From: a virus
Virus record (IMG/VR): IMGVR_UViG_3300025767_000013
Location: 1-64,000 of that record
Direction: 5' to 3' (one strand)
DNA length: 64,000 nt
Shown here: positions 4,507-19,354 of the stretch, one piece after another
How positions within the stretch are numbered: position 1 is the first letter of the stretch
Layout: every line of letters starts with the position of its first letter
Position numbers and translations under genes: made by a program
Notes under the pieces: generated by a model
What the model saw: the letters and a program-made list of their open reading frames with translations, nothing else
Databases searched by the model: none
What the model was told of the DNA's origin: nothing

Positions 4507-7500
4507 ATGAACGAACTATCTCAGTTTTTAGTAGAAAGTATATTAGGGGAAGCGGACAGTGTAGACAACCTCGTTGTAGTTTACGCTGGCCGCTTTCAAC
4601 CTTTTCATAAGGGTCATTACGCAACTTATTCGCACTTAGTAAAGAAGTTCGGAAAAAATAATGTTTATATCGGAACATCTAATAAAACCGATAATCAAAA
4701 ATCTCCATTCAATTTTAAGGAAAAGAAAGAAATAATGACAACGATGTTTGGTGTTCCATCAAACAAAATCGTTGAAGTTAAAAATCCATATCAACCTACT
4801 GAAGTTATGAGTAAGTTTGATAAGGATACTACTGCGTTCATTACCGTAGTTGGTAAGAAAGATGCAAGTAGATTGGGTGGTAAATACTTTGAACCATATA
4901 AAGATGGTAAAGAGTTAGAAGGATATAGAGATAGAGGGTATGTTTACATTGCACCAGAACAACCAAATGGTGTAAGTGGTACCGAAGTTCGAATGGGATT
5001 GAGACGAGGTTCTGACGAGGATAAGAAAGAGTTTTTTACCAAAAGAGCATATGGTAAGTTCAATCCTAAAATATTCAAATTTATTGCTGGTAAATTAGCA
5101 CAACTTCCAGAGATTACATCTGAAACCATTTGGATTCCAAAACACATAGTTGAAAGTTGGTTAATCGGTAATGTTGAACTAATCAAAGAAGCATCATCTA
5201 TTATTGGTAAAACCGAAGTGGATGATGGACCTAATTTCCTTTTCCCATCATATGCATCGTTTGAAAAGATTTCACAAAGACGAGCTGAGAAAATTGGAAT
5301 GACTGTTCTATCGCAAATTATGAGTGATGAACTTACTGATATTGACCCACACCCAATTTATCCAAAAGGACCTGTAAAAGCAGTAACTCCATTCCCTGCA
5401 GGTGTGATTGGTAAGGTAACCGCAACCAACCAAAAAGATTACTATGGTTCAGTTGCATATAACAAATGGTTTAAGCATGTTAGTAGAGTTGCTAGTTTAG
5501 TTGGATACTCTTTAGTAGATTCAATTGATTTGGATACTGATAAAATTGAAGCAGAAAAAACAAAAAAGATTACTGGTGTAAAATTACCTGTTATTAAGGA
5601 GGATATCACTATACCTGTAAACATTGGTGATACTATCTTAATGGGTAAATTCAAAAACAAAAAAGTAGTTGTTAAATCTATTGGTAAAGATGAGTATGGA
5701 ATGCCAACTATCAATGGTAAGAAAGTAGCAACTTTCCGAATGATTAAAGAAGGTAACGAAATCGAATTTAATTATTTGAATGAATCTGATATTGTTAAGT
5801 TAAATAACACATTAGGAATTGAAAGGGGTGAACTACCTCAAATACCAAAAGATTCAATCGAAGAATATTTGGGATATTTGGAATCGAATGGAATTCAATT
5901 CGAAATCCAATCTCAGCCGGTAGCATCTTTGAATTCAACGCAAACCGAAATCAATTTTGATAAGGTTAGAGATATGATGATTGATGATGATGTAAATAAC
6001 ACACCAATCATTGTATCTAAAGATGATTATATCTTAGATGGACATCATAGAGCATTAGCAGCATTTAATTCTGATAAAGAATCAGAAATACCTGTAATTA
6101 AAATTGATTTACCAATCGATGAGTTGATTGATGTATCAAATGATTTTAATGGTTCATATAACGAAGATTTAGATGAACAAACTCTAAATGAATTCAATGG
6201 TGTTAGATTTGATGTAATTGGATATGATAAGAATGGTAAACAAGTTGATATGTATCTTCCAAGAGCAAGATTCGGGTTTATGAAAAACATCGTACATGCT
6301 TCAGCTGATAGATTATTCAAAAGTGGTATCTCAAAAGGTAATGGTATTAACTACATTGAAATTTACTATGATAAACATCATTTAGGAACTATTAGATTAC
6401 CACAAAAATTCACTAAAGGTAAAGATTGGGATAAATTACCAATCAACGAAATCCCAATGGCGGATTTGGTAAAGATTGATTCATTCGCAGATAAACAACT
6501 AAACCCAGTAGATGTAGTTCTAACTGACAAACATTTCTTCGATAGATTAAATGACCCTCGTAATGGTAAAGAAATCTCAAACGCAGAGTTGATTGGATTC
6601 TTTAAGAGATTGGGTAAGAATAAAAAGAAATTTGTTGAATTCTTAAACCAATATGGTCAAATCGTAGCAAAGGATAATAGAACGAATATCAACATTCCAT
6701 TTATGAAGCAGGCGAACAAAGTAATCGCTAAAACCATAATGAGAAAATCTGATTTCAAAACATCTTCACCTGAATATGAATTCGAAGCTAAAAAGAATGA
6801 TGAGTTTGAATACAACGAACCATACGCATTGGGTGGTGGAATCTCTGAAGCAAACGCAGTAAGTGGTGGTAAAGTTCACAAATACATTACTGGTAAAAAT
6901 CTTACACTCAAAGGTAAGAAGTATTCAGATATTGAATTTGAAGTATTGGGTATTGATAACAAATCTCAGTTAGTTAAACTTAAAGTTCTATCTCCAAAGA
7001 ATTTATTCGGTGAGGAAATCAATGTTCCATTCAAAACAATTAGAAGAGGACCATTTATTAAAACCAACACAAATATTAGTGAAGGTTTACTAACTGAAGG
7101 TGGGGCATACGGACATATGAATCATCCATTTGATACTGAAATCAATTTAACTTTCGGACAATTAAAAGATATTGTAAATAAAGCATTAGAAGGTAACTTA
7201 GAACTAACGAGAGAAAAAACCGATGGACAAGCATTGGCAATCTCTTGGGTAAATGGTAGATTGGTTGCTGCTAGAAATAAAGGACACTTAAAGAACAAAG
7301 GAGCTGGTGCATTGGATATCAATGGGGTAGCAATGAAGTTCGCTGGTAGAGGTGAGTTAGAGAAAGCTTACAACTTCGCAATGAAAGACCTTTCAAAAGC
7401 AATCTCCAAACTTTCGGAAAAACAAAGAGAGAAAATATTCAAAGGTGGGGCGTGTTTTATGAATTTGGAAGTAATCTATCCAACTTCTGTTAATGTAATT

Positions 7501-8298
7501 CCTTACGGACAAGCACTCTTAGTATTCCACGGAACAATGGAGTATAATGAGGATGGTATTGCAATTGGTGAGAATCAAGAAGCAGCTAAAATATTGGCTG
7601 GTATGATTAAACAAATCAACGCAGATGTTCAATCCGCTTACACAATCCAAGGCCCACCTGTAACTAAATTACCACAAAGTAAAAACCTATCCTCATTAAA
7701 AGGAAAGTATAATTCACAAATCTCAAAACTTCAATCTCAATTTAAGTTGAAGGATAGTGATGGAATCGCAGATTACCATCAAGCTTGGTGGACTGATTTT
7801 GTAACTAAGAAATCACCATCAACTTTAGATAACAAAACCTTAATGGGATTGGTTAAGAGATGGGCATTCTACGATAAATCATTTAGATTGGATAGTAAGA
7901 ATATTTCAGACCCAAAAGTATTAGATTGGGCTCAAGGTATCGATAAAAATGACCACGCTAAAATAGCTAAAGATAACATCAGACCATTTGAAGATATTTT
8001 CTTAGGTGTAGGTTCAGATGTACTTTCATTTATGAGTTCAGTACTTACCGCAAATCCTAACTCAGCAGTTAGGGATATGAAGAAACGATTAGACCAAACT
8101 ATCGCTGATGTTAAGAAAGGTGGAGACCCAAAGAAAGTTGCAAAACTTAAATTGGAGTTGGAAAGATTGAACGCAATCGGTGGTAAAGATAAGATTGTTC
8201 CAAACGAAGGAATCGTATTTGTGTATGGTGGAAAAACTTTCAAATTGACCGGAACCTTCGCACCATTGAACCAAATCTTAGGATTATTTTACGAATAG
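4507..8298 (+). CDS. Multidomain internal virion protein candidate: NMN-adenylyltransferase-like, ParB-like and ligase-like domains
   Basis: 1263 residues. Residues 21-200 are an adenylyltransferase of the NadM/NadR type (AGRFQPFHKGH at 27-37; SGTEVR at 157-162, the ISSTxxR-like motif). Residues 480-545 resemble a ParB/sulfiredoxin-type domain (ILDGHHRALAAF at 509-520). Residues 670-730 hold a conserved-looking segment of unknown function (DKHFFDRLNDPRNGK). Residues 865-1263 resemble an ATP-dependent polynucleotide ligase/nucleotidyltransferase: EKTDG with Lys904 as likely AMP acceptor (KxDG), NLEVIYP (986-992), and NEGIVFV plus KLTG near the C-terminus. Candidate prohead-protease sites, (L/I)-x-E before A or G, separate the parts: after E15, E228, E781, E859 and E864, with a weaker LNE|F at 562. 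This suggests a polyprotein cut into separate proteins inside the head. The domain assignments come from motifs only. Confidence 0.72.
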   Translation: MNELSQFLVESILGEADSVDNLVVVYAGRFQPFHKGHYATYSHLVKKFGKNNVYIGTSNKTDNQKSPFNFKEKKEIMTTMFGVPSNKIVEVKNPYQPTEVMSKFDKDTTAFITVVGKKDASRLGGKYFEPYKDGKELEGYRDRGYVYIAPEQPNGVSGTEVRMGLRRGSDEDKKEFFTKRAYGKFNPKIFKFIAGKLAQLPEITSETIWIPKHIVESWLIGNVELIKEASSIIGKTEVDDGPNFLFPSYASFEKISQRRAEKIGMTVLSQIMSDELTDIDPHPIYPKGPVKAVTPFPAGVIGKVTATNQKDYYGSVAYNKWFKHVSRVASLVGYSLVDSIDLDTDKIEAEKTKKITGVKLPVIKEDITIPVNIGDTILMGKFKNKKVVVKSIGKDEYGMPTINGKKVATFRMIKEGNEIEFNYLNESDIVKLNNTLGIERGELPQIPKDSIEEYLGYLESNGIQFEIQSQPVASLNSTQTEINFDKVRDMMIDDDVNNTPIIVSKDDYILDGHHRALAAFNSDKESEIPVIKIDLPIDELIDVSNDFNGSYNEDLDEQTLNEFNGVRFDVIGYDKNGKQVDMYLPRARFGFMKNIVHASADRLFKSGISKGNGINYIEIYYDKHHLGTIRLPQKFTKGKDWDKLPINEIPMADLVKIDSFADKQLNPVDVVLTDKHFFDRLNDPRNGKEISNAELIGFFKRLGKNKKKFVEFLNQYGQIVAKDNRTNINIPFMKQANKVIAKTIMRKSDFKTSSPEYEFEAKKNDEFEYNEPYALGGGISEANAVSGGKVHKYITGKNLTLKGKKYSDIEFEVLGIDNKSQLVKLKVLSPKNLFGEEINVPFKTIRRGPFIKTNTNISEGLLTEGGAYGHMNHPFDTEINLTFGQLKDIVNKALEGNLELTREKTDGQALAISWVNGRLVAARNKGHLKNKGAGALDINGVAMKFAGRGELEKAYNFAMKDLSKAISKLSEKQREKIFKGGACFMNLEVIYPTSVNVIPYGQALLVFHGTMEYNEDGIAIGENQEAAKILAGMIKQINADVQSAYTIQGPPVTKLPQSKNLSSLKGKYNSQISKLQSQFKLKDSDGIADYHQAWWTDFVTKKSPSTLDNKTLMGLVKRWAFYDKSFRLDSKNISDPKVLDWAQGIDKNDHAKIAKDNIRPFEDIFLGVGSDVLSFMSSVLTANPNSAVRDMKKRLDQTIADVKKGGDPKKVAKLKLELERLNAIGGKDKIVPNEGIVFVYGGKTFKLTGTFAPLNQILGLFYE

Positions 8299-8310
8299 TA
8301 GAAAACCCAA

Positions 8311-8332
8311 TACTTATATATATAAGTATATA
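8311..8332 (+). promoter_or_regulatory. AT-rich palindromic element, possible promoter variant
   Basis: TACTTATATATATAAGTA is a perfect palindrome, 11 bases before the ATG at 8343. It sits where other genes have a TATTTATA box but lacks the core, so it may be a degenerate promoter or only an AT-rich spacer. Confidence 0.3.
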
Positions 8333-8342
8333 AAATAGGTTT

Positions 8343-9020
8343 ATGGCTGAAAAGGGATTCAATAGAAAGTTCATGCATCCAACTCGTAGAAAGTTGGCTG
8401 ATATGGTTTTCACTGGTAAATACGAAAAGAACACTCAAATAGGATTTTCCGATGCAAAAGAAGAAACCAAACGCAATGTTGGTGATATTTGGGAAGATAA
8501 GGATGGTAATGTTTGGGAACAAAAAGAGTATGGTAAAGTAAAACAATCTAAACTCAGTAATACAATGGTTGAGGTTAGAAAGTATCTTCAACAATTAAAT
8601 ACTTGCAAAGCAACTGATTGTGATGTAAGTGGAAGGTTCTCTAAATCAGATAAAAAACTCATTTCAAAGACCGGTTATTGTGCTGGTTGTTTGGCTAAGA
8701 GAGAACTACAAATCAAACAAGATGGTTTATGGGAAGCATACGAACAATATAGAGTTTACTCTAATATGGCAGCGTATGGAACTGAGGTTTTGGAAAAGTG
8801 GAATCAAGCCTTAAATGAAGTTACCAATATTCACGAATACATCAACGATGATGGTTCGATTGAAAAGTGGTCATCAAATGAGGATGTCCAAACTTTGAGA
8901 GTACAAATTGAATCCGATATTGAAAATGGTAAGAAGGAACTTACCGAAGTTATTGAAAAAAGAAACGCTGCATATGAATTGTTGAAAGACAAGAATTATG
9001 AGTTAGTTACTAAACTTTAA
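8343..9020 (+). CDS. Conserved phage protein with a C4 zinc-finger-like motif
   Basis: 225 residues. The N-terminus is basic (FNRKFMHPTRRKLADMV). A C-x4-C-x19-C-x2-C arrangement (C88, C93, C113, C116; CKATDC and CAGC) suggests a bound zinc. The C-terminal half is helical and charged. No enzyme motif is visible. It lies two genes before the large terminase, where T4-type phages often carry the small terminase, but it does not show a recognisable gp16 pattern, so that assignment is only a possibility. A DNA-binding, late-transcription or packaging accessory role would fit the finger and the location. Confidence 0.65.
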   Translation: MAEKGFNRKFMHPTRRKLADMVFTGKYEKNTQIGFSDAKEETKRNVGDIWEDKDGNVWEQKEYGKVKQSKLSNTMVEVRKYLQQLNTCKATDCDVSGRFSKSDKKLISKTGYCAGCLAKRELQIKQDGLWEAYEQYRVYSNMAAYGTEVLEKWNQALNEVTNIHEYINDDGSIEKWSSNEDVQTLRVQIESDIENGKKELTEVIEKRNAAYELLKDKNYELVTKL

Positions 9021-9031
9021 TTTTAGAAACA

Positions 9032-9415
9032 ATGAAGGATAATAAGGTTTATTTAATTTTGATTGTTATTTTAGGATTTGTTGGTTACACTATGTTCACA
9101 ATGAGAGATATTAGAACCAATGTGGAATCCTTCAATCAAAAAATAGATTCTATCCAAAATGATATTGATTCAATTGCGTTAGTAAATTCGGAATTGGATA
9201 ACAAGATAGAATCGTTACATTCTGAAATTGAACTTATTGATGGTGATATCAGTAGAGTTCAAAATAACATTTATACCATAAAGCAGAATACAGATGAAAA
9301 AGTTAATAATGTTGATGTTCTTACTTTTAATGAGCTTGTCGAGTTTTTCTCAAACCGTTACTCAAACAGACTCGATAGTAAGACTGGAAGTTCCGATAGT
9401 AAAGCTGGTAATTAA
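9032..9415 (+). CDS. Membrane-anchored coiled-coil protein, candidate inner-membrane spanin
   Basis: 127 residues. A single N-terminal membrane segment (about residues 6-25, VYLILIVILGFVGYTMF) follows a short lysine-containing start, giving an N-in, C-out topology. Residues 30-100 form a long coiled coil with regular I/V/L spacing (IDSIQNDIDSI, LDNKIESLHSEIELID). The last residues are polar. This is the architecture of Rz-type i-spanins. The 3' third of the gene overlaps the start of another envelope gene in a different frame, as Rz/Rz1 genes often do. It has no homology that can be named by eye; a non-lytic membrane protein remains possible. Confidence 0.6.
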   Translation: MKDNKVYLILIVILGFVGYTMFTMRDIRTNVESFNQKIDSIQNDIDSIALVNSELDNKIESLHSEIELIDGDISRVQNNIYTIKQNTDEKVNNVDVLTFNELVEFFSNRYSNRLDSKTGSSDSKAGN

Positions 9416-9704
9416 GGATTTAGTTACCTTTGATGGTACTGTTTTGGAATTAACCGAAACAAAACGATTATTGGATTTATCTAATGATAAATTGTTATTG
9501 AAGGATGAGGTAATTGTTAACTTAAATACCAAAGTTCAGAATTTGGAAACTATCATCACTAAAAAGGATGAACAATTTAAGTTGGAACGAGAAAAATCAG
9601 AACAACTCTTAAAAGAGTTAAAGGGGCAACGAAGAAAAACATTTTTCTATAAAGTGGGAACTTTTATAGGAGCTGGGGCACTTACCCTTTTATTAGTAAG
9701 ATAA
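9294..9704 (+). CDS. Secreted coiled-coil protein with a C-terminal membrane segment, nested spanin-partner candidate
   Basis: 136 residues, read in the +1 frame relative to the gene it overlaps for 122 bases. MKK plus a hydrophobic stretch ending SLSSFSQ|T is a classic signal peptidase I signal of the kind common in Flavobacteriia. A coiled-coil region (about 50-112, LNTKVQNLETIITKKDEQFK) is followed by a basic patch (GQRRK) and a C-terminal hydrophobic segment (VGTFIGAGALTLLLV). There is no lipobox cysteine, so it is not a standard Rz1 o-spanin. The topology resembles a unimolecular spanin without the lipid anchor. The overlap, paired coiled coils and location before the terminase make a lysis role plausible, not proven. 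Confidence 0.6.
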   Translation: MKKLIMLMFLLLMSLSSFSQTVTQTDSIVRLEVPIVKLVIKDLVTFDGTVLELTETKRLLDLSNDKLLLKDEVIVNLNTKVQNLETIITKKDEQFKLEREKSEQLLKELKGQRRKTFFYKVGTFIGAGALTLLLVR

Positions 9705-9707
9705 TTT

Positions 9708-11291
9708 ATGGCTGAAGCTAAAAAGACATTAAAACAAATTATCGCTGAGGAATATCAGAGGTGTGCAAAAGACCCGATATACTTTATGCGAAAGTATTGT
9801 ATGATTCAACATCCGGTGAGAGGAAAAATTCCCTTTCACCTTTTTCCGTTTCAAGAAGATACACTTACTCAATTCAAAGACCATCGTTACAACATCGTAT
9901 TGAAATCTCGCCAAACTGGTATCTCAACACTAACCGCAGGATTCTCTTTGTGGAAAATGTTATTCAATGATGATTACAATGTATTGGTAATTGCAACCAA
10001 ACAAGAGGTAGCTAAGAACCTTGTAACGAAGGTTAGGGTGATGAACCAATACTTACCTTCTTGGTTAAAGTTAACAACCGTAGAAGATAACAAACTATCT
10101 CTGCGATACTCAAATGGTTCACAAATAAAAGCAACTTCAGCAGCTGGAGATGCCGGTCGTTCTGAAGCACTATCCCTTTTAGTATTTGATGAGGCAGCCT
10201 TCATTGATAAGATTGAAGAAATTTGGATTTCTGCACAATCTACTTTATCAACTGGTGGTTCTGCTATCGTACTATCTACGCCAAATGGTGTCGGTAACTT
10301 CTTCCACAAAACTTGGGTAGGTTCTGAAGATGGAACTAATGGATTCAATAACATCCGAATTCATTGGAGTGTTCACCCTGAAAGGGAGCAAGCATGGAGA
10401 GATGAGCAAGAGGTTCTATTAGGACCAAAAGGAGCAGCGCAGGAATGTGATTGTGATTTTGTTTCTTCGGGTGATTCAGTTATTGACCCACAACTATTAC
10501 AATTCTACAAAGATACCTATGTACAAGAACCAGTTGAAAGAGGTGGATTCGATGGTAATCTTTGGAAATGGGAATATCCAAACTATTCAAAATCATATAT
10601 GGTTGTAGCGGACGTTGCGAGGGGAGATTCTTCCGACTACTCCGCTGCGCATGTAATTGATGTTGAGGATTCATCTCAAGTAGCAGAATATAGAGGTAAG
10701 TTGGATACAAAGGATTTTGGAAATTTCTTAGTAGCATTAGCAACCGAATACAATAACGCATTGTTGGTGATTGAAAACGCAAATGTTGGATGGGCAGCTA
10801 TTCAACAAGTAATCGATAGAAACTATTCTAATCTTTACTATATGAGTAAGGATTTGAAATATGTGGATGTGGAGAATCAATTATCAAACAAATATCGTTC
10901 TGAGGATAGGGGAATGGTGGCTGGATTCTCAACAACATCAAGAACTCGTCCTTTGATTATCTCAAAGTTGGAAGAATATGTTAGAGAAAAATCTATCACA
11001 ATCCGTTCAGTAAGAACCATTGATGAGTTGTTCACATTTATTTGGAACAATGGTAGAGCTGAAGCAATGCGAGGTTACAATGATGACCTTACAATGGCAT
11101 TGGCAATCTCACTTTGGGTAAGAGATACAGCTCTTAGATTAAGACAAGAGGGGATTGATTTAACAAAACAGGCACTTAATGGTATATCTTCATATACTTA
11201 TACTGGGATATATGGTGGAAACGATATAGATGAAAACCCTTGGCAAATGAAAATTGGAGATTCCGTTGAGGACCTATCAAAATGGTTATAA
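9708..11291 (+). CDS. 17: Terminase large subunit (gp17-like packaging ATPase/nuclease)
   Basis: 527 residues, close to the usual length of T4-type large terminases. The ATPase domain has a Walker A variant (SRQTGIST, 67-74), Walker B (LLVFDEAAF, 157-165) and the coupling motif LSTPNG (189-194). The nuclease domain of the RNase H fold follows: VADVARGDSSDYS (300-312, with Asp302), VIENANVG (354-361, with Glu356) and NDDLTMALA near the C-terminus. It powers DNA translocation into the prohead and cuts the concatemer. Four bases separate it from the spanin-like gene, so lysis and packaging genes may share a transcript. The portal comes next but one, without the tail sheath and tube genes that separate them in T4. 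Confidence 0.95.
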   Translation: MAEAKKTLKQIIAEEYQRCAKDPIYFMRKYCMIQHPVRGKIPFHLFPFQEDTLTQFKDHRYNIVLKSRQTGISTLTAGFSLWKMLFNDDYNVLVIATKQEVAKNLVTKVRVMNQYLPSWLKLTTVEDNKLSLRYSNGSQIKATSAAGDAGRSEALSLLVFDEAAFIDKIEEIWISAQSTLSTGGSAIVLSTPNGVGNFFHKTWVGSEDGTNGFNNIRIHWSVHPEREQAWRDEQEVLLGPKGAAQECDCDFVSSGDSVIDPQLLQFYKDTYVQEPVERGGFDGNLWKWEYPNYSKSYMVVADVARGDSSDYSAAHVIDVEDSSQVAEYRGKLDTKDFGNFLVALATEYNNALLVIENANVGWAAIQQVIDRNYSNLYYMSKDLKYVDVENQLSNKYRSEDRGMVAGFSTTSRTRPLIISKLEEYVREKSITIRSVRTIDELFTFIWNNGRAEAMRGYNDDLTMALAISLWVRDTALRLRQEGIDLTKQALNGISSYTYTGIYGGNDIDENPWQMKIGDSVEDLSKWL

Positions 11292-11302
11292 TTTGGAATT
11301 AT

Positions 11303-11320
11303 GATATTTATATAGTATAA
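11303..11320 (+). promoter_or_regulatory. Putative late promoter, TATTTATA box
   Basis: GATATTTATATAGTATAA shares both the TATTTATA core (11305-11312) and the downstream TATAGTATAA with the element before 4507. The core ends 28 bases before the ATG at 11341, the same spacing as at 4507. Confidence 0.55.
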
Positions 11321-11340
11321 GTAATTATTTGATTTTACAC

Positions 11341-11748
11341 ATGGAAAATTATACTTCTCAACTTTACAAAGAATTTAAGAATATCCACAAAGAGGATATT
11401 TTAGAATACGATGTGGAAAATTACTATGACTTAAAAGAATTTGTTGATTTTTTGAATAACTTAAAAGAAGATATCAACGAAGCTGAATATCAAGGTAGAG
11501 AAGTAAAACTTAACAAACCTATGAGAGGTGATGTTAAAAAATTCAAAGTTTATGTTAAAAATGAAAAGGGAAATGTTGTGAAGGTAAACTTTGGACATGG
11601 TGGTTCTTCTGCTAAAGCAGCGGGAGAAGAAACTATGAGGATTAAGAAAGATAATCCAGACCGAAGAGCAGCATTTAGAGCTAGACATAATTGTGATAGT
11701 CCTGGTCCGAGAACCGGAGCAAGATATTGGAGTTGTAAAGCTTGGTAA
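11341..11748 (+). CDS. Small prohead-core candidate with a basic Cys/Trp C-terminal motif
   Basis: The ATG at 11341 is preferred over an in-frame TTG 12 bases upstream. 135 residues. The acidic N-terminal 47 residues end in INE|A (E47), a match to the gp21-type cleavage rule, and would leave a basic 88-residue mature protein. That part contains GDVKKFKVYVKN, VKVNFG, and a C-terminal block RRAAFRARHNC-x3-PGPRTGARYWSCKAW; this combination is familiar from hypothetical proteins of many T4-like environmental phages. The basic charge and predicted processing suggest an internal DNA-associated head protein. The gene has its own promoter-like box and precedes the portal gene. Confidence 0.72.
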   Translation: MENYTSQLYKEFKNIHKEDILEYDVENYYDLKEFVDFLNNLKEDINEAEYQGREVKLNKPMRGDVKKFKVYVKNEKGNVVKVNFGHGGSSAKAAGEETMRIKKDNPDRRAAFRARHNCDSPGPRTGARYWSCKAW

Positions 11749-11777
11749 AAATAAAGGTTATAAAATAAAGAAACAAA

Positions 11778-13532
11778 ATGGCAGAACAACAAAATAGTTC
11801 ATTCTTTCAGAGACTAACGAAACTCTTCTCCACCCAAGCGGTTGTAACAATCGATGCGGAAGGTAAGAGAAAGATTAAGGATGTCGATGATAGACAGCAG
11901 GGTAGTACCAACTTAATGAATTTAAGAGATAGGTACACTAAACTTCAGCGTTCATTCTATGGTGACCAAATGGCAGCCCAATCAATGGCATATCACCAAG
12001 TTCGTAGAGAATTATTTAGAGATTACGATGCTATGGATAATGACCCCATTATCTCATCCGCATTAGATATCTACGCTGATGAATCTACTTTGAAAAATGA
12101 GTTTGGAGAAGTAGTTCAAATCAAAACACAAAACGAAAGAGTTAAAGAAATCTTAGAAAACCTTTTCTATGATATTCTTAATGTAGAGTTTAACCTTTGG
12201 GCATGGACTCGAAATATGGTGAAATATGGTGATTTCTTTTTATCATTAGAAATTCAGCCAGGCAGTGGTATCATTAATGTAAAACCACTTCCAGTTTACG
12301 AAACTGAAAGATTGGAGAATACTGATGCAAACAATCCAAACTATGTAAAGTTCAAAGTTAACCATGACCCAAATGGTAAGGGTGAGTATGAGAACTTTGA
12401 AATCGTTCACTTCCGTTTATTATCAGATACAAACTTCCTTCCTTATGGTAAGGCAATGATTGAGAATGGTAGAAGAATTTGGAAGCAGGTTTCTTTGATG
12501 GAAGATGCGATGTTAATCCATAGAATTATGAGAGCTCCGGATAAAAGAGTTTTCAAAATTGATATTGGTAACATACCACCGCAAGAAGTAGATAACTACA
12601 TGCAGAAGATTATCAACAAAATGAAGAAAACTCCATTTGTTGACAAGAATACTGGTGATTACAACTTAAAGTATAACATCCAAAACCTAACCGAAGATTT
12701 CTTCTTACCTGTTAGAGGTGGTGATAGTGGTACTGAGATTGATTCATTGGGTGGATTACAATACACCGCAATTGAAGATATCGATTACCTAAAGAACAAA
12801 ATGTTCGCAGCTCTTAAAATTCCAAAAGCATATTTGGGATATGATGAGAATGTAAATGGTAAAGCAACTTTGGCAGCAGAAGATGTTAGATTTGCAAGAA
12901 CGATTGAAAGAATCCAAAGAACATTAGTATCCGAACTTACTAAACTTGCTGTTGTTCACTTAGCATCACAAGGTATTGAAGGTTCTGATATGGTTGATTT
13001 CGAATTGAATTTGGTAAATCCATCTACAATTTATGAACAAGAGAAAGTAAACCTTTGGAGTGAAAAAGTGAGATTGGTTTCTGATATTACTCAATTGAAT
13101 ATGATTTCAAAAGAGTGGGCATATGAGAACATCTTTAATATGAGTAAGGATGAAATCGACCATCAGAAAACAAATCTTATCAATGATATTAAGGATAGAT
13201 ATCGTTATCGTATGATTGAGGATGAGGGTAATGACCCTGCGGTTCAATCAGAACCATCGGATGTTGAGAATGAGTTGGAAGAATTAAAAACCGAACTCAG
13301 TAACAAAGGTGGTAGACCAAGAGAGGGTAACACTTATGGTAAAGATAAACACCCATATGGTAGAGACCCATTAGGAGCAAAGGAAAATCAAAAAGCACTT
13401 AAAAAAGAAGTTTCATCTGAAAAAATGGCCCATAAATTAGCCAAAGAATATGTAAATGGAATTTCAGCAAAGAAGAGAGTAATTTCTGAAAAGAAGGACT
13501 TTTTGAATGATGACAATTTGTTAGACGATTAA
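11778..13532 (+). CDS. 20: Portal vertex protein (gp20-like)
   Basis: 584 residues. The N-terminal and middle parts follow the T4 gp20 pattern: RRELFRDYDAMDNDPIISSALDIYADE (about 74-100), YGDFFLSLEI, HFRLLSDTNFLPYGKAMIENGRRIWKQ and the clip/stem region LMEDAMLIHRIMRAPDKRVFKIDIGN, then KMKKTPFVDKNTGDYNLKYN and YLGYDENVNGKATLAAEDVRFARTIERIQ. Twelve copies form the ring through which DNA enters and on which the prohead core nucleates. The C-terminal 90 residues are low-complexity and charged (GGRPREGNTYGKDKHPYGRDP) and probably disordered. It follows the small core protein by 29 bases. Confidence 0.93.
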   Translation: MAEQQNSSFFQRLTKLFSTQAVVTIDAEGKRKIKDVDDRQQGSTNLMNLRDRYTKLQRSFYGDQMAAQSMAYHQVRRELFRDYDAMDNDPIISSALDIYADESTLKNEFGEVVQIKTQNERVKEILENLFYDILNVEFNLWAWTRNMVKYGDFFLSLEIQPGSGIINVKPLPVYETERLENTDANNPNYVKFKVNHDPNGKGEYENFEIVHFRLLSDTNFLPYGKAMIENGRRIWKQVSLMEDAMLIHRIMRAPDKRVFKIDIGNIPPQEVDNYMQKIINKMKKTPFVDKNTGDYNLKYNIQNLTEDFFLPVRGGDSGTEIDSLGGLQYTAIEDIDYLKNKMFAALKIPKAYLGYDENVNGKATLAAEDVRFARTIERIQRTLVSELTKLAVVHLASQGIEGSDMVDFELNLVNPSTIYEQEKVNLWSEKVRLVSDITQLNMISKEWAYENIFNMSKDEIDHQKTNLINDIKDRYRYRMIEDEGNDPAVQSEPSDVENELEELKTELSNKGGRPREGNTYGKDKHPYGRDPLGAKENQKALKKEVSSEKMAHKLAKEYVNGISAKKRVISEKKDFLNDDNLLDD

Positions 13533-13555
13533 AAAATTAATAAATAAAAATAAAG

Positions 13556-13585
13556 TTATATTTATATACGATAGATTTTCGTATA
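13556..13585 (+). promoter_or_regulatory. Putative late promoter with downstream hairpin
   Basis: TTATATTTATATA (13556-13568, core 13559-13566) overlaps a perfect 7-bp inverted repeat, TATACGA (13565-13571) with TCGTATA (13579-13585) and a 7-base loop. The next gene starts at 13615. The box-plus-hairpin plan matches the elements before 4507 and 18206. Confidence 0.5.
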
Positions 13586-13614
13586 GGAATATATTATTAT
13601 AGGATAAAAAAGTA

Positions 13615-14493
13615 ATGAAGAGGGTAAAACATTCAAAATTCAAAAATACGGGTATTCTATTTGAGCTACTTGTGAGGCAAATCACATTGGAGGTCTTAAA
13701 TGGTGATACTACCGAAAAGGCGAAGAAAATTGTTAAAGAGTTCTTCTCTTCCAGCACGGAATTGAACAAAGAACTTAGACTATATGATTTGCTTATAAAA
13801 GAAAGATACAATTCAGAATCAAGAGCTGAGAAATTCATTGATACTGTCAATGAAGCTCACGATAGAATTGACCAAAATAAACTACAAAGAGAGAAGTATA
13901 ATCTTATCAAAAAGATTAACGAATCATTCAATATGGATGAGTTCTTATCTTCTCCTATTTCGAACTATAAAGTTCTTGCATCTATCTATAAGATTTTTGA
14001 ATCGAAGAGATATACCGATTATGATGTAAAGGATGTATTTAACTCAAAAATTACCCTCATTGAGAATATCACATCAAAACCATCAACATTGGTAGAAACA
14101 AAAGATTCGGCAGATAAAATTGTTGAATCATATAAAAAGCAAGACAAAGATTTAAGATTACTTACCTATAAAATCTTAGTTGAAACTTTCAACAAAAAGT
14201 ATTCTAATTTAGATGAAAATCAAAAACAACTATTAAAGCAGTATATTAACAATATTACTAATACTACTGGATTTAAGTCTTATGTTGAAAAAGAAATCCC
14301 ATCTATTGTTGCTGAATTAAATCAAATTCAAAAGCAAATCAAAGATAAAGTAACTAAAATCAAATTATCAGAAACCATTTCTGTATTAAAGAAAACCAAA
14401 ATTGGTAAGGTGGTATCTGATAACCACGTTTCATCGTTGATGATTTCATACGAACTTATAAAGGAGTTAAAGGAAAAGGTAAATGGAAAGTAA
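13615..14493 (+). CDS. Conserved head-module protein, function unknown
   Basis: 292 residues, lysine-rich and largely helical. The N-terminus (MKRVKHSKFKNTGILFELLVRQITLEVLNGD) is strongly patterned and looks like a conserved family signature. The middle and C-terminus carry coiled-coil segments (LNQIQKQIKDKVTKIKLSE). No catalytic motif, signal or membrane segment is visible. It sits between the portal and the gp67/gp68-like core protein and overlaps the latter by 11 bases, so a role in prohead core formation or portal attachment is likely from context alone. Confidence 0.7.
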   Translation: MKRVKHSKFKNTGILFELLVRQITLEVLNGDTTEKAKKIVKEFFSSSTELNKELRLYDLLIKERYNSESRAEKFIDTVNEAHDRIDQNKLQREKYNLIKKINESFNMDEFLSSPISNYKVLASIYKIFESKRYTDYDVKDVFNSKITLIENITSKPSTLVETKDSADKIVESYKKQDKDLRLLTYKILVETFNKKYSNLDENQKQLLKQYINNITNTTGFKSYVEKEIPSIVAELNQIQKQIKDKVTKIKLSETISVLKKTKIGKVVSDNHVSSLMISYELIKELKEKVNGK

Positions 14494-14932
14494 GTTAAAG
14501 GAACTTATTGAAGATTTAATTGCTGAGATTGAACAAGAAGATTTGGAAATCGAAGAAGCAACCACTACATCCAATGTAGATGGCTACAATACTCCTAATG
14601 CTTTCAAAGATTCGGATGGAACTGATGAAGATGATGAACCTGAAAATGATTTTATAGATAGAATCAATACATCCACTGGTTATAAAAGAGTAGACGAAAA
14701 TCGTTGGCATGAATTAAGAAAAGATGAATCCTCTCCCAAAGCAAAAATTGGTAAGGGGATTTCGAATGTCAATAGACAACTTTCGGAAATCGAAACATTC
14801 CTTAGATGGTATGGTAAGATTAAAAACGAAAGTGGAATCGATAAAGACCAGTATTGGAAAAGAACACAAAAAAACTTATTCAAAATCAGAGAGAGGTTGA
14901 ATAACATCGTAACATCAATTAGCAAATTATAA
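14483..14932 (+). CDS. Prohead core protein candidate (processed, gp67/gp68-position)
   Basis: 149 residues. The first 25 residues are very acidic (LKELIEDLIAEIEQEDLEIEE) and end at IEE|A, a candidate prohead-protease site. The predicted mature protein begins ATTTSNVDGYNTPNAF, a Thr-rich start with a GYNTPxAF motif of the sort seen in head proteins of T4-like environmental phages, and continues with an acidic linker and a basic helical C-terminus (WKRTQKNLFKIRERLNNIV). It occupies the place of the small core genes 67/68 between portal and protease in T4. Function is inferred from position and processing signal. Confidence 0.68.
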   Translation: MESKLKELIEDLIAEIEQEDLEIEEATTTSNVDGYNTPNAFKDSDGTDEDDEPENDFIDRINTSTGYKRVDENRWHELRKDESSPKAKIGKGISNVNRQLSEIETFLRWYGKIKNESGIDKDQYWKRTQKNLFKIRERLNNIVTSISKL

Positions 14933-14947
14933 TTGGGAATTAGAACT

Positions 14948-16282
14948 ATGAGCATTACCAAAGAACAATTGAAGGAAACACTTCGTAACATAATGAAAGA
15001 AGAATCTGATTATCAGACATTCTTCAAAGCAGCTTTAGAAAAAGCAGGAAAATCAATTCCATCAATGTCTGATGATGAAAAGAAAGTATTCTTTAATAAG
15101 ATTGATGCTGCTTGGGATGGTAAAGGTGAGAAGAACGAAGAGTTAACTGGAAACCAACACAAATTGGATATTGATGGTGATGGTGAAATTGAAGCATCTG
15201 ATTTAGCAGCATTAAGAGCTAAAAAAGATGAATCAGTAACCGAAGGTAAAAAAAGATTTAATACTATGTATGGTGTTGGTAAATCGAAATATGTAGTAAA
15301 CTATCACGATGGTTCAAAGAAACACAAGGATGGTAGTGATTTCTTTGATATTCAAACTTTCAAAAATCAAAAAGACTTTGATAAATTCCAAAAAGCGCTT
15401 TTACAAAAAGGATTCATTGAAGAATCAGTAAACGAAGCAGCTAGTAGAACCGCAATGGAAATTGGTGGTTTGACTGGAATGAACAAAGATGCAATCCAAA
15501 AGTTTGTTGATACTAATGAGTTGGATATTGAAAAGGTTTTTCAATTTGTTAAAAAAGGAAAACTGTCAGATAGAATGGATTTGGTATCTGCAATTGCTGG
15601 AAAGCCAGGTAATCCTATTCAAAAGAAAATGATTAAGATGTTCGGTGAATCAGTAAACGAAGGCGTTTCTCCAAAGGATATGGATAAAATCAAAACCGCA
15701 GTAGAAGCAGCATCTTCATTTATGGGAATTGGTTCTGAGTTAAAGAAATCTGGATTAAAGTATGTATTCGCTACATCTCCAATGCCAATTTATGTAGTTC
15801 AACCAACTCCTAATAATAGAGTTGTTATCGTAAATAAGAAATACGCATCTAAACCTGATTTCGTTTATGGTGATACCGCAGTTGGTGTAATGGAATCTCT
15901 TACTGAAGGTAGAGCATTTATCAACGCAGCTAAGAAAGCAAAAGCTGAAGGTAAAACCGAATTTGAATTCAATGGTAAAACCTACCCAGTAACCATCAAA
16001 GAAAATTTAACTGAAGCAAGATTAGGTAAAGTTGCTTTGTTAAAGCAAGTTGAAAAAGGTAACACATCTCAAATAGAGGGTGTAAAGATTTCTTCGGATT
16101 TGGCATTCGAATTAAGAATGTTCTTAGAAAGACCAATTATGGCAAGAAGTAGAACTGGTATCGCTATTGATAATTCACAGATGAAGGATGCACTTAAAAT
16201 GATGGTGAATGCTGGAATTGAAAAAAGATTATCTGGTGGTGTTAAAGCTGAATTCAAAAAATTAATTGAAAAATACAAATAA
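14948..16282 (+). CDS. Internal head polyprotein candidate with five protease-like sites
   Basis: 444 residues from the ATG at 14948 (an in-frame TTG at 14933 abuts the previous stop and is less likely). Residues 1-99 carry a dockerin/EF-hand-like calcium loop, DIDGDGEIEASDL (74-86). The same short linker, E-(S/N)-(V/L)-(T/N)-E followed by G or A, occurs five times: after E99, E163, E238, E320 and E356. Between the linkers lie compact, mostly basic segments of 36-99 residues, including FNTMYGVGKSKYVVNYHDGSKK, a helical segment at 164-238, a 239-320 segment, GRAFINAAKKAKAEGKTEFE (321-340) with FNGKTYPVTI, and a helical basic C-terminal part. The layout fits a precursor cut by the protease encoded next door into up to six internal proteins. 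No enzyme is recognised. Confidence 0.7.
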   Translation: MSITKEQLKETLRNIMKEESDYQTFFKAALEKAGKSIPSMSDDEKKVFFNKIDAAWDGKGEKNEELTGNQHKLDIDGDGEIEASDLAALRAKKDESVTEGKKRFNTMYGVGKSKYVVNYHDGSKKHKDGSDFFDIQTFKNQKDFDKFQKALLQKGFIEESVNEAASRTAMEIGGLTGMNKDAIQKFVDTNELDIEKVFQFVKKGKLSDRMDLVSAIAGKPGNPIQKKMIKMFGESVNEGVSPKDMDKIKTAVEAASSFMGIGSELKKSGLKYVFATSPMPIYVVQPTPNNRVVIVNKKYASKPDFVYGDTAVGVMESLTEGRAFINAAKKAKAEGKTEFEFNGKTYPVTIKENLTEARLGKVALLKQVEKGNTSQIEGVKISSDLAFELRMFLERPIMARSRTGIAIDNSQMKDALKMMVNAGIEKRLSGGVKAEFKKLIEKYK

Positions 16283-16293
16283 GGAATACCAAT

Positions 16294-16881
16294 ATGAAAA
16301 GTTTAATTATAGAAACCAATTTGTTTGAAGGAAGAGTTAACGAAGATGCTTCGGGTAGAACTTTGGTGAAAGGTGTCCTTCAAAGAGCAGGTGCAGAAAA
16401 CCAAAATGGTAGAGTGTACCCAAAAGGAATTTTAGAAAGAGAAGTAAACAAATATCAACAACTCATCAAAGAAAGAAGAGCATTGGGTGAGTTAGACCAT
16501 CCTGATTCTTCAGTAATCAACCTAAAGAATGTATCTCATAATATTAAAGAAGTACATTGGGAAGGTGAAGATGTAGTTGGTACTGTTGAAATTCTTCCAA
16601 CTCCATCTGGTAATATCTTAAAAGAATTATTAAGAGCAGGAATCCTATTGGGTATCTCATCAAGAGGTATGGGTTCGGTAAAACCAATGGAAGGTAACAA
16701 AGTAGTAGTTGGTGAAGATTTTGAATTAATCGGTTGGGACTTTGTTTCTAACCCATCTACACATGGTGCATTTATGACTCCAATGAACGAATCAGTAGTT
16801 AAAGGTATTGGTACTGATGTTTGTGGAGATTTTTGTAAAGCACAAGATTTAATGAGAGAAATTATAACGGAGTTAGTATAA
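16294..16881 (+). CDS. 21: Prohead core scaffold protease (gp21-like)
   Basis: 195 residues, a serine protease of the T4 gp21 (U9/S80) group. ALGELDHP (63-70) supplies the likely catalytic His69 and GISSRGMGSV (120-129) the serine. GWDFVSNPSTHGAFM (147-161 region) is typical of the family's C-terminal part. The N-terminus contains LFE|G and VNE|D, possible self-cleavage points. The enzyme matures the prohead by cutting core and capsid proteins after (L/I)-x-E; matching motifs are found in its neighbours. It has an AAGGA ribosome-binding site and its stop overlaps the next start (TAATG). It is a little shorter than T4 gp21. Confidence 0.9.
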   Translation: MKSLIIETNLFEGRVNEDASGRTLVKGVLQRAGAENQNGRVYPKGILEREVNKYQQLIKERRALGELDHPDSSVINLKNVSHNIKEVHWEGEDVVGTVEILPTPSGNILKELLRAGILLGISSRGMGSVKPMEGNKVVVGEDFELIGWDFVSNPSTHGAFMTPMNESVVKGIGTDVCGDFCKAQDLMREIITELV

Positions 16882-17435
16882 TGAGCAAGAAAAATTTTGA
16901 TATCTATGATTATGTGCACAACAACAAAATCACTTTTAAGGTTGATGCACCAAAAGGAACCAGTGTAACTAAAGGTTACAATGATATCCGTAAAACAAAC
17001 ATCAACGAAGTAAAAATTGTAGATGGTAAATTCAGTTTATCTGAATCATTGGATGCTAACCGCCCGTTGGCAACTGAAGTAAAGAAACATTTCTTAGAAA
17101 TTATTTCTACTTACAAAGGATTCTCTGAACAAATGAAAAGACAATCTGATATCGTTGAGGTAGCAGAAACATTAGGTGGAGTTGTGGAAGCAGCTAAAAC
17201 CTTAACTCTTTCAGAAGCTGGTGATTGGTTCGATAAAGTAACCATCAAAAGAAATATGAGTGAGTTGGATAAAATGGATAAAGCATTTGATAAAGTAGCT
17301 GCAGAAGCTAGAGCATTGGATGAAAGGTTGCACGCATTGTATGAGGATATGGGTAACATCTTAGGTAGATACTATGAGATTTCCGATATTGACCCACAAA
17401 CAATGAAGGAAAGATTAGGAATTAAAGGAGAATAA
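16881..17435 (+). CDS. Prohead-core-associated protein, candidate protease substrate
   Basis: 184 residues, coupled to the protease by TAATG. The N-terminal half is mixed beta/helix (NKITFKVDAPKGTSVTKGYN). The C-terminal half (113-184) is helical and well patterned (ELDKMDKAFDKVAAEARALDERLHALYEDMGNILGRYYEI). LSE|A at 110-113 and VVE|A at 101-104 fall exactly at the junction, so the helical half may be released during head maturation. No family can be named; the location within the core gene cluster supports a head role. Confidence 0.65.
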   Translation: MSKKNFDIYDYVHNNKITFKVDAPKGTSVTKGYNDIRKTNINEVKIVDGKFSLSESLDANRPLATEVKKHFLEIISTYKGFSEQMKRQSDIVEVAETLGGVVEAAKTLTLSEAGDWFDKVTIKRNMSELDKMDKAFDKVAAEARALDERLHALYEDMGNILGRYYEISDIDPQTMKERLGIKGE

Positions 17436-17439
17436 TATC

Positions 17440-17955
17440 ATGCCAGCACAATCACAACAACAACAAAAATTATTCGGATTAGCATTAGCTGTTAAGAGAG
17501 GTGAAGTTTCTCCATCAGAAGTTTCTGATGAAGTAAAAGATATCGTTGATAGAATGAGTGAAAAGGATATTGAGGATTTTGCTGGAACATCTCATAAAGG
17601 TTTACCTAAAAAGGTAGAACAACAAATGAGGGAAATGGTTAGAGAGATTATGAGAGAAAGAGTAATCTCCGAACTAAATGAAGATGGTAAGATGCAAGGT
17701 GGTGAAGATGACCCTTGTTGGAAAGGATACGAAATGGTTGGAATGAAAATGAAGGATGGTAAAGAAGTTCCTAATTGTGTTCCAAAGAATGAATCAGTAA
17801 ATGAAGGGTACTCTACCGAAGAGAAACGAATCGTTCTGATGGCAGTTAAAAAGATTGCTAAATATATGAATGTTGATATGAAAACTGCAATGGGTTATGT
17901 ACTCGGAGCAGGACAGGAACTCGAAAGAGATATCGAAAGAGGAAAAATAAAATAA
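17440..17955 (+). CDS. DUF3008-like head-module protein
   Basis: 171 residues with a good AAGGAG ribosome-binding site. Residues 1-60 (MPAQSQQQQKLFGLALAVKRG, then SEKDIEDFAGTSHKGLPKKV) match the DUF3008 pattern found in many phages. A second segment around 92-116 (PCWKGYEMVGMKMKDGKEVPNC) is a small two-cysteine motif, also seen in phage head regions. NESVNE|G at 117-123 repeats the linker of the 444-residue polyprotein, so a C-terminal helical piece of 49 residues may be cut off. It is the last gene before a terminator. Function unknown. Confidence 0.7.
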   Translation: MPAQSQQQQKLFGLALAVKRGEVSPSEVSDEVKDIVDRMSEKDIEDFAGTSHKGLPKKVEQQMREMVREIMRERVISELNEDGKMQGGEDDPCWKGYEMVGMKMKDGKEVPNCVPKNESVNEGYSTEEKRIVLMAVKKIAKYMNVDMKTAMGYVLGAGQELERDIERGKIK

Positions 17956-18205: not shown

Positions 18206-19354
18206 ATGGCAAATTCAAAATTGTTAAAAGAAGCAATTGCTGATGCCAAAGCTGTAAGAGAAACTGCTATCGCTAACGCTAAAATCGCATTAGAAGAAGC
18301 TTTTACTCCACGCTTACAATCTATCCTTTCTAAGAAGCTTCAAGCTGAAATGGAAGGTGAAGAGGAAGAGCCAATGGAAGAAGAGTTAGACTCAAGTGAT
18401 TTGGGAGTAGGTGATAATGTTGACCCATCAGCTGAAGCAAGTGATGCTCACATCGACTTAGGTGCAGAATCTGAAGAAGAGACTGCAGAAGTTGGTGAAG
18501 AAGATGAAGCTCTTGATGTTGTTTCTGAAGAAGAACATTCTGATGAAGAAGCAATGGAAGAGGAAGTTGACGGAGTTGGCTATGATGACCCAACTAACGC
18601 AGATGACGCTGAGATTTCTGAAGAAGAGGACATGGAAATGGACTTGGAAGAAGAAATGGAAGAAGAAGATGAGTTAGATTTGGAATCTATCATTAGAGAA
18701 CTCGAAATGGGTATGGAAGATGACGAAGAAATTTCTGAAGAGGAAATGGATTCTGAAGAAGAAGTATCTGAAGAAGAAATGCAAGATGAAGTTCCTGCAA
18801 TGGAAGAAGAAGAAATGGATTCAGAAGAAGAAGTTGAAATGTCAGATGACATGGAAGCTGAAATGGAAGATGATATGGAAGATGATGAAATTGATTTGGA
18901 AGAGATTCTTAGAGAGATGGGTTACGGCGCTGAAGAAGAAGAAGTAAACGAAGAAGAGGAAGTTGCTGACAACTCTGCTGAATTAGAAGCAGAATTGGAA
19001 GAAGCTTACGCTGCTATCAAAACACTTCAATCTACTATCAACGAAGTAAACCTATTGAACGCAAAATTATTATACGCTAATAGATTGTTCAGAGCTTATA
19101 ACTTAAACAACGAACAAAAAACTAAAGTTGTAGAGAACTTAGACAGAACTACATCTGTTAGAGAAGTAAAATTAGTTTACGCAACGCTTGCTGAATCAAT
19201 GAACTTTACAGGTACTGAAAGAAAAACTAAGAAAGTTGTAGCTGAAGCTGCATCTAAACCAGTTGCTTCTACCGCACCTGCAAAAGAAATTATTTCTGAA
19301 AGCACAAATGAATTGGCTAATAGATTCAAACAATTAGCTGGAATCAACAAATAA
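18206..19354 (+). CDS. 22: Prohead core scaffolding protein (gp22-like)
   Basis: 382 residues. The N-terminus is helical (LLKEAIADAKAVRETAIANAKIALEEAF). Residues about 48-255 are extremely acidic, dominated by E, D and M, and probably disordered. The C-terminal part (about 258-335: LEEAYAAIKTLQSTINEVNL, LLYANRLFRAYNLNNEQK, VREVKLVYATLAESM) is the conserved helical region of gp22-type scaffolds. VAE|A and ISE|S near the C-terminus are candidate protease sites, as expected for a core protein degraded at maturation. The acid tract is far longer than in T4 gp22. It directly precedes the capsid gene and shares its promoter. Confidence 0.88.
   Translation: MANSKLLKEAIADAKAVRETAIANAKIALEEAFTPRLQSILSKKLQAEMEGEEEEPMEEELDSSDLGVGDNVDPSAEASDAHIDLGAESEEETAEVGEEDEALDVVSEEEHSDEEAMEEEVDGVGYDDPTNADDAEISEEEDMEMDLEEEMEEEDELDLESIIRELEMGMEDDEEISEEEMDSEEEVSEEEMQDEVPAMEEEEMDSEEEVEMSDDMEAEMEDDMEDDEIDLEEILREMGYGAEEEEVNEEEEVADNSAELEAELEEAYAAIKTLQSTINEVNLLNAKLLYANRLFRAYNLNNEQKTKVVENLDRTTSVREVKLVYATLAESMNFTGTERKTKKVVAEAASKPVASTAPAKEIISESTNELANRFKQLAGINK

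Follow-up and report, generated by a model that had tools for sequence, protein, structure and literature searches.

Candidate prohead-protease sites link exchangeable, mostly basic modules in head-region proteins of a T4-like phage

The left third of a 64,000-nucleotide stretch of viral DNA (the window; positions 1 to 64,000 of the 70,657-base IMG/VR virus record IMGVR_UViG_3300025767_000013) is a T4-type head operon, in which several proteins, here called carriers, consist of modules joined by sequences that resemble the cutting sites of a prohead protease. Tailed phages pack and inject proteins, and the internal proteins of T4 each have their own leader. At the sequence level, the carriers display fixed ends enclosing cargo modules that vary in number and are mostly small and basic, and most of their junctions read hydrophobic-x-Glu↓small, commonly ESVNE↓A/G (the arrow marks the putative cut). 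We therefore regard them as probable polyproteins of swappable cargo, freed by the phage prohead protease and kept in the head.

Carrier A (444 residues; 14948..16282, + strand) comprises six pieces with five candidate sites between them. Its N-terminal module A_N (residues 1–99; 14948..15244, +) is acidic, with an isoelectric point (pI) of 4.8, and ends ESVTE↓. This is followed by cargo m1 (residues 100–163; 15245..15436, +; pI 9.4; three strands and a helix predicted; ending ESVNE↓), m2 (residues 164–238; 15437..15661, +; pI 9.1; predicted helical; ending ESVNE↓), m3 (residues 239–320; 15662..15907, +; pI 8.9; ending ESLTE↓), the 36-residue m4 (residues 321–356; 15908..16015, +; pI 9.2; ending ENLTE↓) and the fixed C-terminal module A_C (residues 357–444; 16016..16279, +; pI 10.1). 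The sites are E99 (ESVTE↓G), E163 (ESVNE↓A), E238 (ESVNE↓G), E320 (ESLTE↓G) and E356 (ENLTE↓A), so that the linker ES(V/L)(T/N)E originally proposed for this protein holds at the first four, E356 having EN in place of ES. A calcium-loop (dockerin-like) motif, DxDGDG/DxDNDG, closes A_N at residues ~74–92, its EF-hand match falling below the Pfam cut-off; a similar motif occurs in the virion protein gp92 of cyanophage S-SCSM1 (locus L318, 936-2498).

Four further carriers were recognised. Carrier B (149 residues; 14483..14932, +) has an N-module (B_N) with candidate site E25 and a fixed C-module. Carrier C (171 residues; 17440..17955, +) is made up of a DUF3008 N-module (C_N; PF11450), a CW...VPNCVP tag, ESVNE↓ at E122 and a fixed C-module (C_C). 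Carrier D (1263 residues; 4507..8298, +) has an acidic 15-residue leader, an NMNAT/cytidylyltransferase-like domain (D_N; PF01467), a variable middle and, behind LLTE↓GG at E864, a ligase-superfamily-like C-module (D_C; residues 865–1263; 7099..8295, +); its originally proposed sites lie at E15, E228, E781, E859 and E864. Carrier F (135 residues; 11341..11748, +; phrog_7595) has an acidic leader, INE↓A at E47 and a basic C-piece. A 184-residue protein (family E; 16881..17435, +) has a motif at E112.

The next gene after carrier A encodes an S77 (gp21-type) prohead protease of 195 residues (16294..16881, +; PF03420, E = 6.5e-30; phrog_207, E = 8.1e-54), itself with candidate sites at E12 and E166. 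Its H69, S122 and S123 are invariant in 80/80 aligned sequences and, by analogy with T4, are presumably catalytic (H69 with S122/S123). Cutting after (L/I)xE is predicted for this enzyme from the T4 specificity and the conserved capsid site. That site, LLDE↓A at E61, is the putative propeptide end of the major capsid protein (gp23; 19383..21002, +; PF07068) and is kept among capsid relatives, with LVSE↓A, LVKE↓A or LVTE↓A in 4 of 38 aligned sequences, the most distant listed. Because these distant relatives carry LV-x-E↓A, valine at P3 (the third residue before the cut), the commonest linker residue there, appears acceptable in this protease lineage. The proposed match of LLDE↓A to the T4 gp23 maturation point agrees roughly: the alignment to mature T4 capsid chains begins at query residue 77 and chain residue 29, and ungapped extrapolation puts the T4 cut ~13 residues from E61, which proves nothing. 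A scaffold-like acidic protein (18206..19354, +; pI 4.1) with a weak phrog_15696 match, assigned a gp22 role by position, has candidate sites at E31, E266 and E330.

Every site of the original prediction was present at its residue, and we then compared their number with chance using 1000 composition shuffles of each of the 32 window proteins. A strict linker, E[SN][VLIM][TNSED]E[AG], occurs five times in the 444-residue protein against 0.00 expected, a count reached in 0/1000 shuffles, and once in the 171-residue protein (p ~0.001); it is absent from the other 30/32 window proteins, including open reading frames (ORFs) of 4800, 3735 and 3050 residues. The loose motif [LIV]xE[AG] is likewise in excess in the 444-residue protein (5 against 1.06 expected, p ~0.002) and marginally so in the 184-residue protein (2 against 0.41, p ~0.05). 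It also falls at terminase E162 and capsid E431, where it is probably meaningless.

Conservation, counted as the full motif kept among relatives, separates these sites further. It is strong at E47 of carrier F (115/115) and at E864 of carrier D (86/86, with varied upstream letters); capsid E61 is kept in 43/43, but other capsid glutamates average 90%. In carrier A, E99, E163, E238 and E320 are conserved at 70–84% and E356 at 34% (near alignment ends). Conservation is fair at E122 of carrier C (75%), at E25 of carrier B (E and P3 100%, full motif 58%) and, in carrier D, at E859 (74%), E415 (75%) and E15 (E 98%, full motif 40%). It is weak at E228 (54%) and E781 (16%) of carrier D, while E112 of the 184-residue protein is conserved at 81%, yet the other glutamates of that protein average 83%. 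The candidate sites of the scaffold-like protein (93–100%) and of the protease (E12 77%, E166 83%), together with E415, are additions to the original list, most of which is upheld; its weak members are E781 and E228, and E112 is uninformative. E112, E781 and capsid E431 were dropped as cleavage sites on the evidence of the relatives.

To place the modules in context, we collected relatives by four IMG/VR scans (82, at least 598, 365 and 79 relatives), taking at most the best 80 loci of each. The resulting 312 loci include some that overlap on a shared contig and, together with locus L001 and the window, make up 3.42 megabases. ORFs with ATG starts and at least 70 residues numbered 3451, of which 2221 are not contained in another; 181 of these have one or more strict linkers, 80 two or more and 17 four or more. 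When the linker proteins were cut at their sites and the pieces clustered, an ordered grammar emerged. One piece family is N-terminal in 29/30 members, several are C-terminal only (e.g. 14/14, 17/17, 12/12), and others are internal (11/11) or mixed, the mixed ones meeting as many as 12 types of left and 13 types of right neighbour. Linkers conserved between shuffled domains had been foreseen, and the modules indeed switch both order and carrier gene.

A profile search with the window's own terminal modules returned carriers with constant ends and varying interiors. Full-length relatives comprise 28 proteins of 179–526 residues for carrier A, 107 of 134–887 residues for carrier B (0–745 residues between the two modules), 18 of 154–414 residues for carrier C and 48 of 761–1999 residues for carrier D; the fixed module of carrier F is C-terminal and starts at residue 10–1012 in 114 proteins. 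Of the 62 proteins in which cargo m2 was found, 8 have an end of carrier A, 16 of C, 2 of B, one of F and one of both B and C; the other 34, of which 10 are truncated, show no recognised carrier end. Taken together, m1–m4 accompany terminal modules of A, B, C, E or F. The protease motif GISSRG lies at most 700 nucleotides 3' of carrier A in 26/27 testable relatives, many of whose loci were fetched with the protease as query. The shortest carriers A (two forms, 179–182 residues) retain an m4-like piece and a Cys-Gly linker, and a description of them as cargo-free was discarded as not quite right. Cys-Gly runs (GCGCGCGG and similar) stand near protease sites in several linker proteins (L066 4816-5709, L075 4612-5931, L091 4523-5071, L096 5413-5952). 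A search of a phage collection with the 444-residue protein gave one match at E ≤ 0.01, to the N-module only; a scan of bacterial and archaeal genomes gave 19 pattern matches and zero relatives, and thereby no host.

The junctions themselves were scored over distinct contexts (up to 22 per module) with at least 15 residues before the module start and a loose site at most 4 residues away. Such a site is present at the start of m1 in 22/22 contexts, of m3 in 16/16 and of C_C in 18/18. Reducing 105 upstream contexts to 29 mutually dissimilar octamers left Glu at P1, the residue before the cut, in 25, with a hydrophobic P3 as well in 24. After ES[VIL][NTS]E, the following residue (P1') is A, G or S in 133/196 linkers against a background of 19.5%. 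Breakpoints of internal homology were compared with random positions in 78 non-redundant linker proteins of the 181: a loose site is no more than 5 residues away from 244/716 homology starts (null 97.6, standard deviation, sd, 9.7) and from 307/807 homology ends (null 112.0, sd 9.9), that is, 2.5–3 times expectation.

If the linker is meant for cutting, a module in last position should be able to do without it. Hydrophobic-x-E follows m1, m2 and m3 combined in 77/79 cases when another module comes after and in 0/8 at a protein C-terminus; seven of the eight C-terminal cases are m2, several with nearly identical endings, so that independent events are fewer. At protein ends overall, hydrophobic-x-E is about as frequent as at random positions: among 76 proteins with at least two strict linkers it occurs in the last 7 residues of 11, against 10.2 (sd 2.8) for random 7-mers.

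The pieces also differ in charge. Internal segments (n = 192, 142 of them of at most 130 residues) have a median pI of 9.35, and in 41 of their 48 families (30 singletons) the median exceeds 8, compared with 30% of length-matched segments of other proteins. C-modules have median pI values of 9.4–10.1, A_N 5.2 and B_N 4.7. In the window's 444-residue protein the acidic N-terminal piece (4.8) precedes five pieces of 8.9–10.1, and the split recurs in the 135-residue (4.3/10.2) and 171-residue (5.0/9.4) proteins. Structure modelling of the 444-residue protein was limited to residues 92–256 (m1 and m2; 43 sequences), module fragments being unalignable to full length. The predicted model shows two folded domains, with a mean predicted local distance difference test score (pLDDT) of 81 and a predicted template modelling score (pTM) of 0.52; pLDDT drops under 50 at two linkers, that of E238 and that of E99, the latter forming the N-terminus of the model. 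A PDB fold search with this model returned zero matches at E ≤ 0.001.

Recognisable domains are concentrated in carrier D. All 30 relatives scanned with Pfam open with the NMNAT/cytidylyltransferase-like domain (CTP_transf_like, 30), accompanied by DUF5661 in 9, PolyA_pol in 4, GNAT in 2 and HD in 2; among 105 other linker proteins, DUF3008 occurs in 19 and seven more families in one or two each. The D_C segments E39-K-T-D-G43 and E370-G-x-V-F374 are invariant in 37 sequences, and we take EKTDG (KxDG) and EGxVF to be motifs of the polynucleotide ligase superfamily. The D_C model has a pLDDT of 82, with residues 1–6 below 50. Its fold matches are suggestive of a ligase: the first 15 Foldseek rows are RNA ligases (best E = 0.083, without significance), and in VIA-align 2 ligases score Z 5.4 behind a methyltransferase in the top row (Z 5.8). 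A search of PDB sequences with the D_C profile gave 9 weak matches, 7 of them to ribosomal protein eS6 (best E 0.00065), which were judged spurious.

The linker is also unusually uniform as DNA. In carrier A it reads GAATCAGTAACCGAA at E99 (15230..15244, +; one mismatch against the consensus) and GAATCAGTAAACGAA at both E163 (15422..15436, +) and E238 (15647..15661, +); at E122 of carrier C it reads GAATCAGTAAATGAA (17791..17805, +). Near-identical ESVNE/ESVTE 15-mers (GAATCVGTAAAYGAA) occur at unrelated junctions in the window and in many viral contigs. Of 269 ESVNE occurrences, 97 are in places with dissimilar flanks, and 51 of these are written GAATCAGTAAACGAA. Their pairwise identity as 15-mers is 0.306, against 0.036 expected from codon use, a homogeneity 8.6 times the codon-usage expectation. 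Among 51 pentapeptides with at least 10 flank-dissimilar places, linker pentapeptides top the list at up to 15.9 times, and for the 28 non-linker-like ones the median is 0.74 and the highest value 4.7. This control replaced a first set of peptides with mixed results (pairwise identity 0.038 to 0.577), mostly close homologues. The flanks of the linker 15-mer are little conserved. An exact IMG/VR scan with the 15-mer found at least 119 stretches, some on contigs among those fetched before; in the 80 loci inspected, 106/113 occurrences encode ESVNE within an open frame no shorter than 80 codons, with A, G or S at P1' in 70/106 though the 15-mer pattern excludes P1'. Since ESVNE is near-identical as DNA at unrelated junctions, the linker is likely to be a recurrent recombination seam; constraint at the nucleotide level may be an alternative cause of the homogeneity.

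Isolates provide a further line of comparison. Microcystis phage Mel-JY01 has a short carrier D in which IIAE↓GG, corresponding to E864, marks the boundary between the NMNAT-like domain and the ligase-like one. In Flavobacterium phage immuto, a 360-residue protein just 5' of the protease (locus L315, 17579-18661) has seven loose sites and an 841-residue protein (L315, 8007-10532) has ESVNE↓G. For cyanophage S-CREM2, PMC10665884 reports ORF154 and ORF160 in virions by mass spectrometry; ORF154 is a D_N relative (i-E 7.5e-7), and ORF160 matches the CW tag weakly (i-E 5.8e-4), with EISE↓G and a further stretch behind the match. The NMNAT ORF91 of S-SCSM1, reported from virions in PMC9602691, is likewise a D_N relative (E 1.6e-10), and S-SCSM1 gp93, annotated as ‘virion protein’ as is gp92, is a C_N relative (E 1.2e-32). 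The NMNAT-like proteins start MKNFSSFLTE↓A in S-CREM2 (ORF154), MKSFLQFLKE↓A in S-SCSM1 and MKNFHQFITE↓A in S-SRM01.

The original prediction had proposed that these proteins are precursors of separately packaged internal proteins, which module shuffling and the retention of hydrophobic-x-E↓small at most junctions support. In the mechanism we propose, the fixed N-terminal part of a carrier, often acidic, would bring the precursor into the prohead core. Upon closure of the prohead, the S77 protease encoded beside carrier A would cut the linker sites while maturing the capsid protein and scaffold; cutting of the sites by this enzyme is very probable. Acidic leaders would then exit, and basic pieces would remain beside the packaged DNA, each a separate internal protein, like T4 IPI–III. 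Retention of the pieces in the mature head is likely, and their packaging is supported indirectly by their basicity and by the cyanophage virion proteins related to some modules. We lean towards at least some pieces being injected, and those entering the host with the DNA would notably include two parts of carrier D, the NMNAT-like and the ligase-like. Since a cargo would require just its flanking sites, modules would be exchangeable in frame, and the near-identical 15-bp linker DNA would be the likely exchange seam. We marginally favour the fuller formulation, a cassette system with fixed ends and interchangeable basic cargo whose junction is at once a protease site and a 15-bp seam (GAATCAGTAAACGAA) for in-frame exchange.

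A number of observations weigh against this account. The sequences are related and the counts not fully independent. The loose-motif excess in the 1263-residue protein is weak taken alone (6 against 2.43 expected, p ~0.04), and in the 135-, 149- and 171-residue proteins the count of this motif, taken by itself, does not exceed chance. A loose site stands at the start of m2 in 14/19 contexts and of A_C in 10/19, the remainder having none, and P1' is D, E or V in 39/196 linkers. Cargo m4 behaves inconsistently, with hydrophobic-x-E in 25/45 internal and 1/6 terminal cases; m4 is short and resembles part of some A_N, and 14 of the 20 internal misses overlap A_N. The charge split has exceptions in residues 416–781 of the 1263-residue protein (pI 5.0), C_N (median 6.6) and E_N (5.9), as well as in D_N, which is basic (pI 9.5) behind its acidic 15-residue leader. 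Around E163 the m1–m2 model shows only a slight drop in confidence (block means 80, 75). Among relatives, m1–m4 were not found with carrier D. In the isolate with the closest protease, Mel-JY01, the carrier B relative (178 residues) has zero sites, which slightly lowers our confidence. Sites are also missing from the B_N relative of immuto and from short DUF3008 proteins of cyanophages S-SCSM1, S-PM2 and Bellamy, and in LR756508 none lies exactly at the ligase boundary, the nearest being 16 residues upstream. Finally, the authors of PMC10665884 and PMC9602691 concede possible carry-over in CsCl-purified stocks.

Three other explanations were weighed. The carriers sit beside the protease and scaffold, and the T4 core proteins are described as cut to several fragments that mostly exit (PMC9026906); they might thus be scaffold-type core proteins, cut like T4 gp22/gp67, with fragments leaving the head and modules acting as assembly aids rather than cargo. 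We consider this unlikely, since the cargo is basic against a scaffold pI of 4.1 and moves between carriers, two modelled modules are predicted to fold, carrier D has enzyme-like domains, and some modules have relatives in proteins reported from cyanophage virions. The linkers might otherwise be only flexible joints and recombination seams of uncut multidomain proteins, their likeness to prohead-protease sites being incidental. Recombination alone could explain why ESVNE is kept as DNA at dissimilar junctions, and cleavage of these proteins is a prediction from sequence, which also tells against our own account. But hydrophobic-x-E is kept where the peptide is unshared (24/29 dissimilar octamers), E864 is invariant with varied upstream letters, P1' is enriched in A/G/S though the seam excludes it, and the linkers belong to the same motif class as the capsid site, down to valine at P3 in divergent relatives; we regard this explanation as quite improbable.

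Carrier D combines enzyme-like domains as polyvalent proteins do, which raises the model of one multidomain protein injected whole. Any processing would then follow entry and be done by the protein's own peptidase or by one of the host. Phage P1 DdrB is described as processed before packaging (PMC5512222). Against the model, Pfam detected zero peptidase families at E ≤ 0.001 in the 30 carrier D and 105 other linker proteins, Pfam possibly lacking models of the MPTase peptidase, and the sites fit what is known of the cutting preference of the capsid protease family, which has a member encoded alongside. It appears the least probable of the three, and prohead-protease polyproteins remain our preferred explanation.

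Elsewhere in the window, terminase (9708-11291) and portal (11778-13532) were named from reading the sequence. Three giant ORFs lie 3' of the head genes (26231-40633, 4800 residues; 41561-52768, 3735 residues; 54850-63999, >3050 residues), all without the strict linker. RNA families and tRNAs were sought in the window and none was found.

If the polyprotein account is correct, one capsid protease frees many payload proteins from shared precursors, akin to the polyproteins of eukaryotic viruses. If the cassette system also holds, a T4-like aquatic phage lineage evolves the proteins that it packages, and possibly injects, by exchanging them like beads on a string, and one stretch of 15 bases serves both protein processing and recombination. 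The polyprotein account would explain the patchwork look of head-region hypothetical proteins in aquatic T4-like phages. A simple sequence rule, hydrophobic-x-E↓A/G/S between modules, would then reveal packaged protein families of no known function and predict exact new N-termini, confirmable in existing virion mass-spectrometry data. The linker also suggests a natural seam for in-frame domain exchange.

Among the titles and abstract openings listed by our literature search, in which subscription papers were mostly uncovered, no paper describes shuffled prohead-protease polyproteins, and the main text of a study of phage protein mosaicism (PMC10684548) contains neither ‘protease’ nor ‘cleav’. 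What is new here is the grammar of carriers and cargo, the loss of the site from modules that stand last in a protein, the charge split and the DNA seam. Several known systems share parts of this arrangement. Cyanophages S-SCSM1 and S-CREM2 have related NMNAT-like, DUF3008 and CW-tag modules, and cyanophage NMNAT-like proteins open with ten residues ending [LI]xE↓A; there, however, the modules are separate genes or short chains, with zero long ESVNE-linked trains in the regions read. Polyvalent proteins are described by Iyer et al. 2017 as multidomain, shuffled and thought to enter the cell with DNA (PMC5512222), and the carriers resemble them in being shuffled multidomain chains, carrier D holding several effector domains. 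They differ in that a built-in MPTase is the proposed separator and some stay whole, whereas the sites here fit the capsid maturation protease and most cargos are without a Pfam family.

SPN3US is closer in its processing: PMC10052503 describes many internal proteins and a gp21-related protease that cuts a single substrate at several points, a likeness that extends to phiKZ (PMC9026906). In SPN3US the identified cuts, bar self-cleavage of the protease, yield N-terminal propeptides, whereas here the sites lie between shuffled modules. The T4 internal proteins are described in PMC9026906 as small and basic, not highly conserved between phages, and with an N-terminal leader cut by the gp21-type protease after (L/I)xE. 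Among the ten proteins scanned, zero Pfam or PHROG families bear the IPI–III name, these genes being quick to diverge. A leader ending in a candidate site is present in the 135-residue protein (E47) and partly so in the 1263-residue (E15) and 149-residue (E25) proteins; in carrier A the leader would be a 99-residue module. The likeness to IPI–III and Alt lies in small basic head proteins whose leader would be removed by a gp21-type protease after (L/I)xE; the difference is that each T4 protein is described with its own propeptide, whereas here several cargos would share one precursor, with internal sites and fixed carrier ends.

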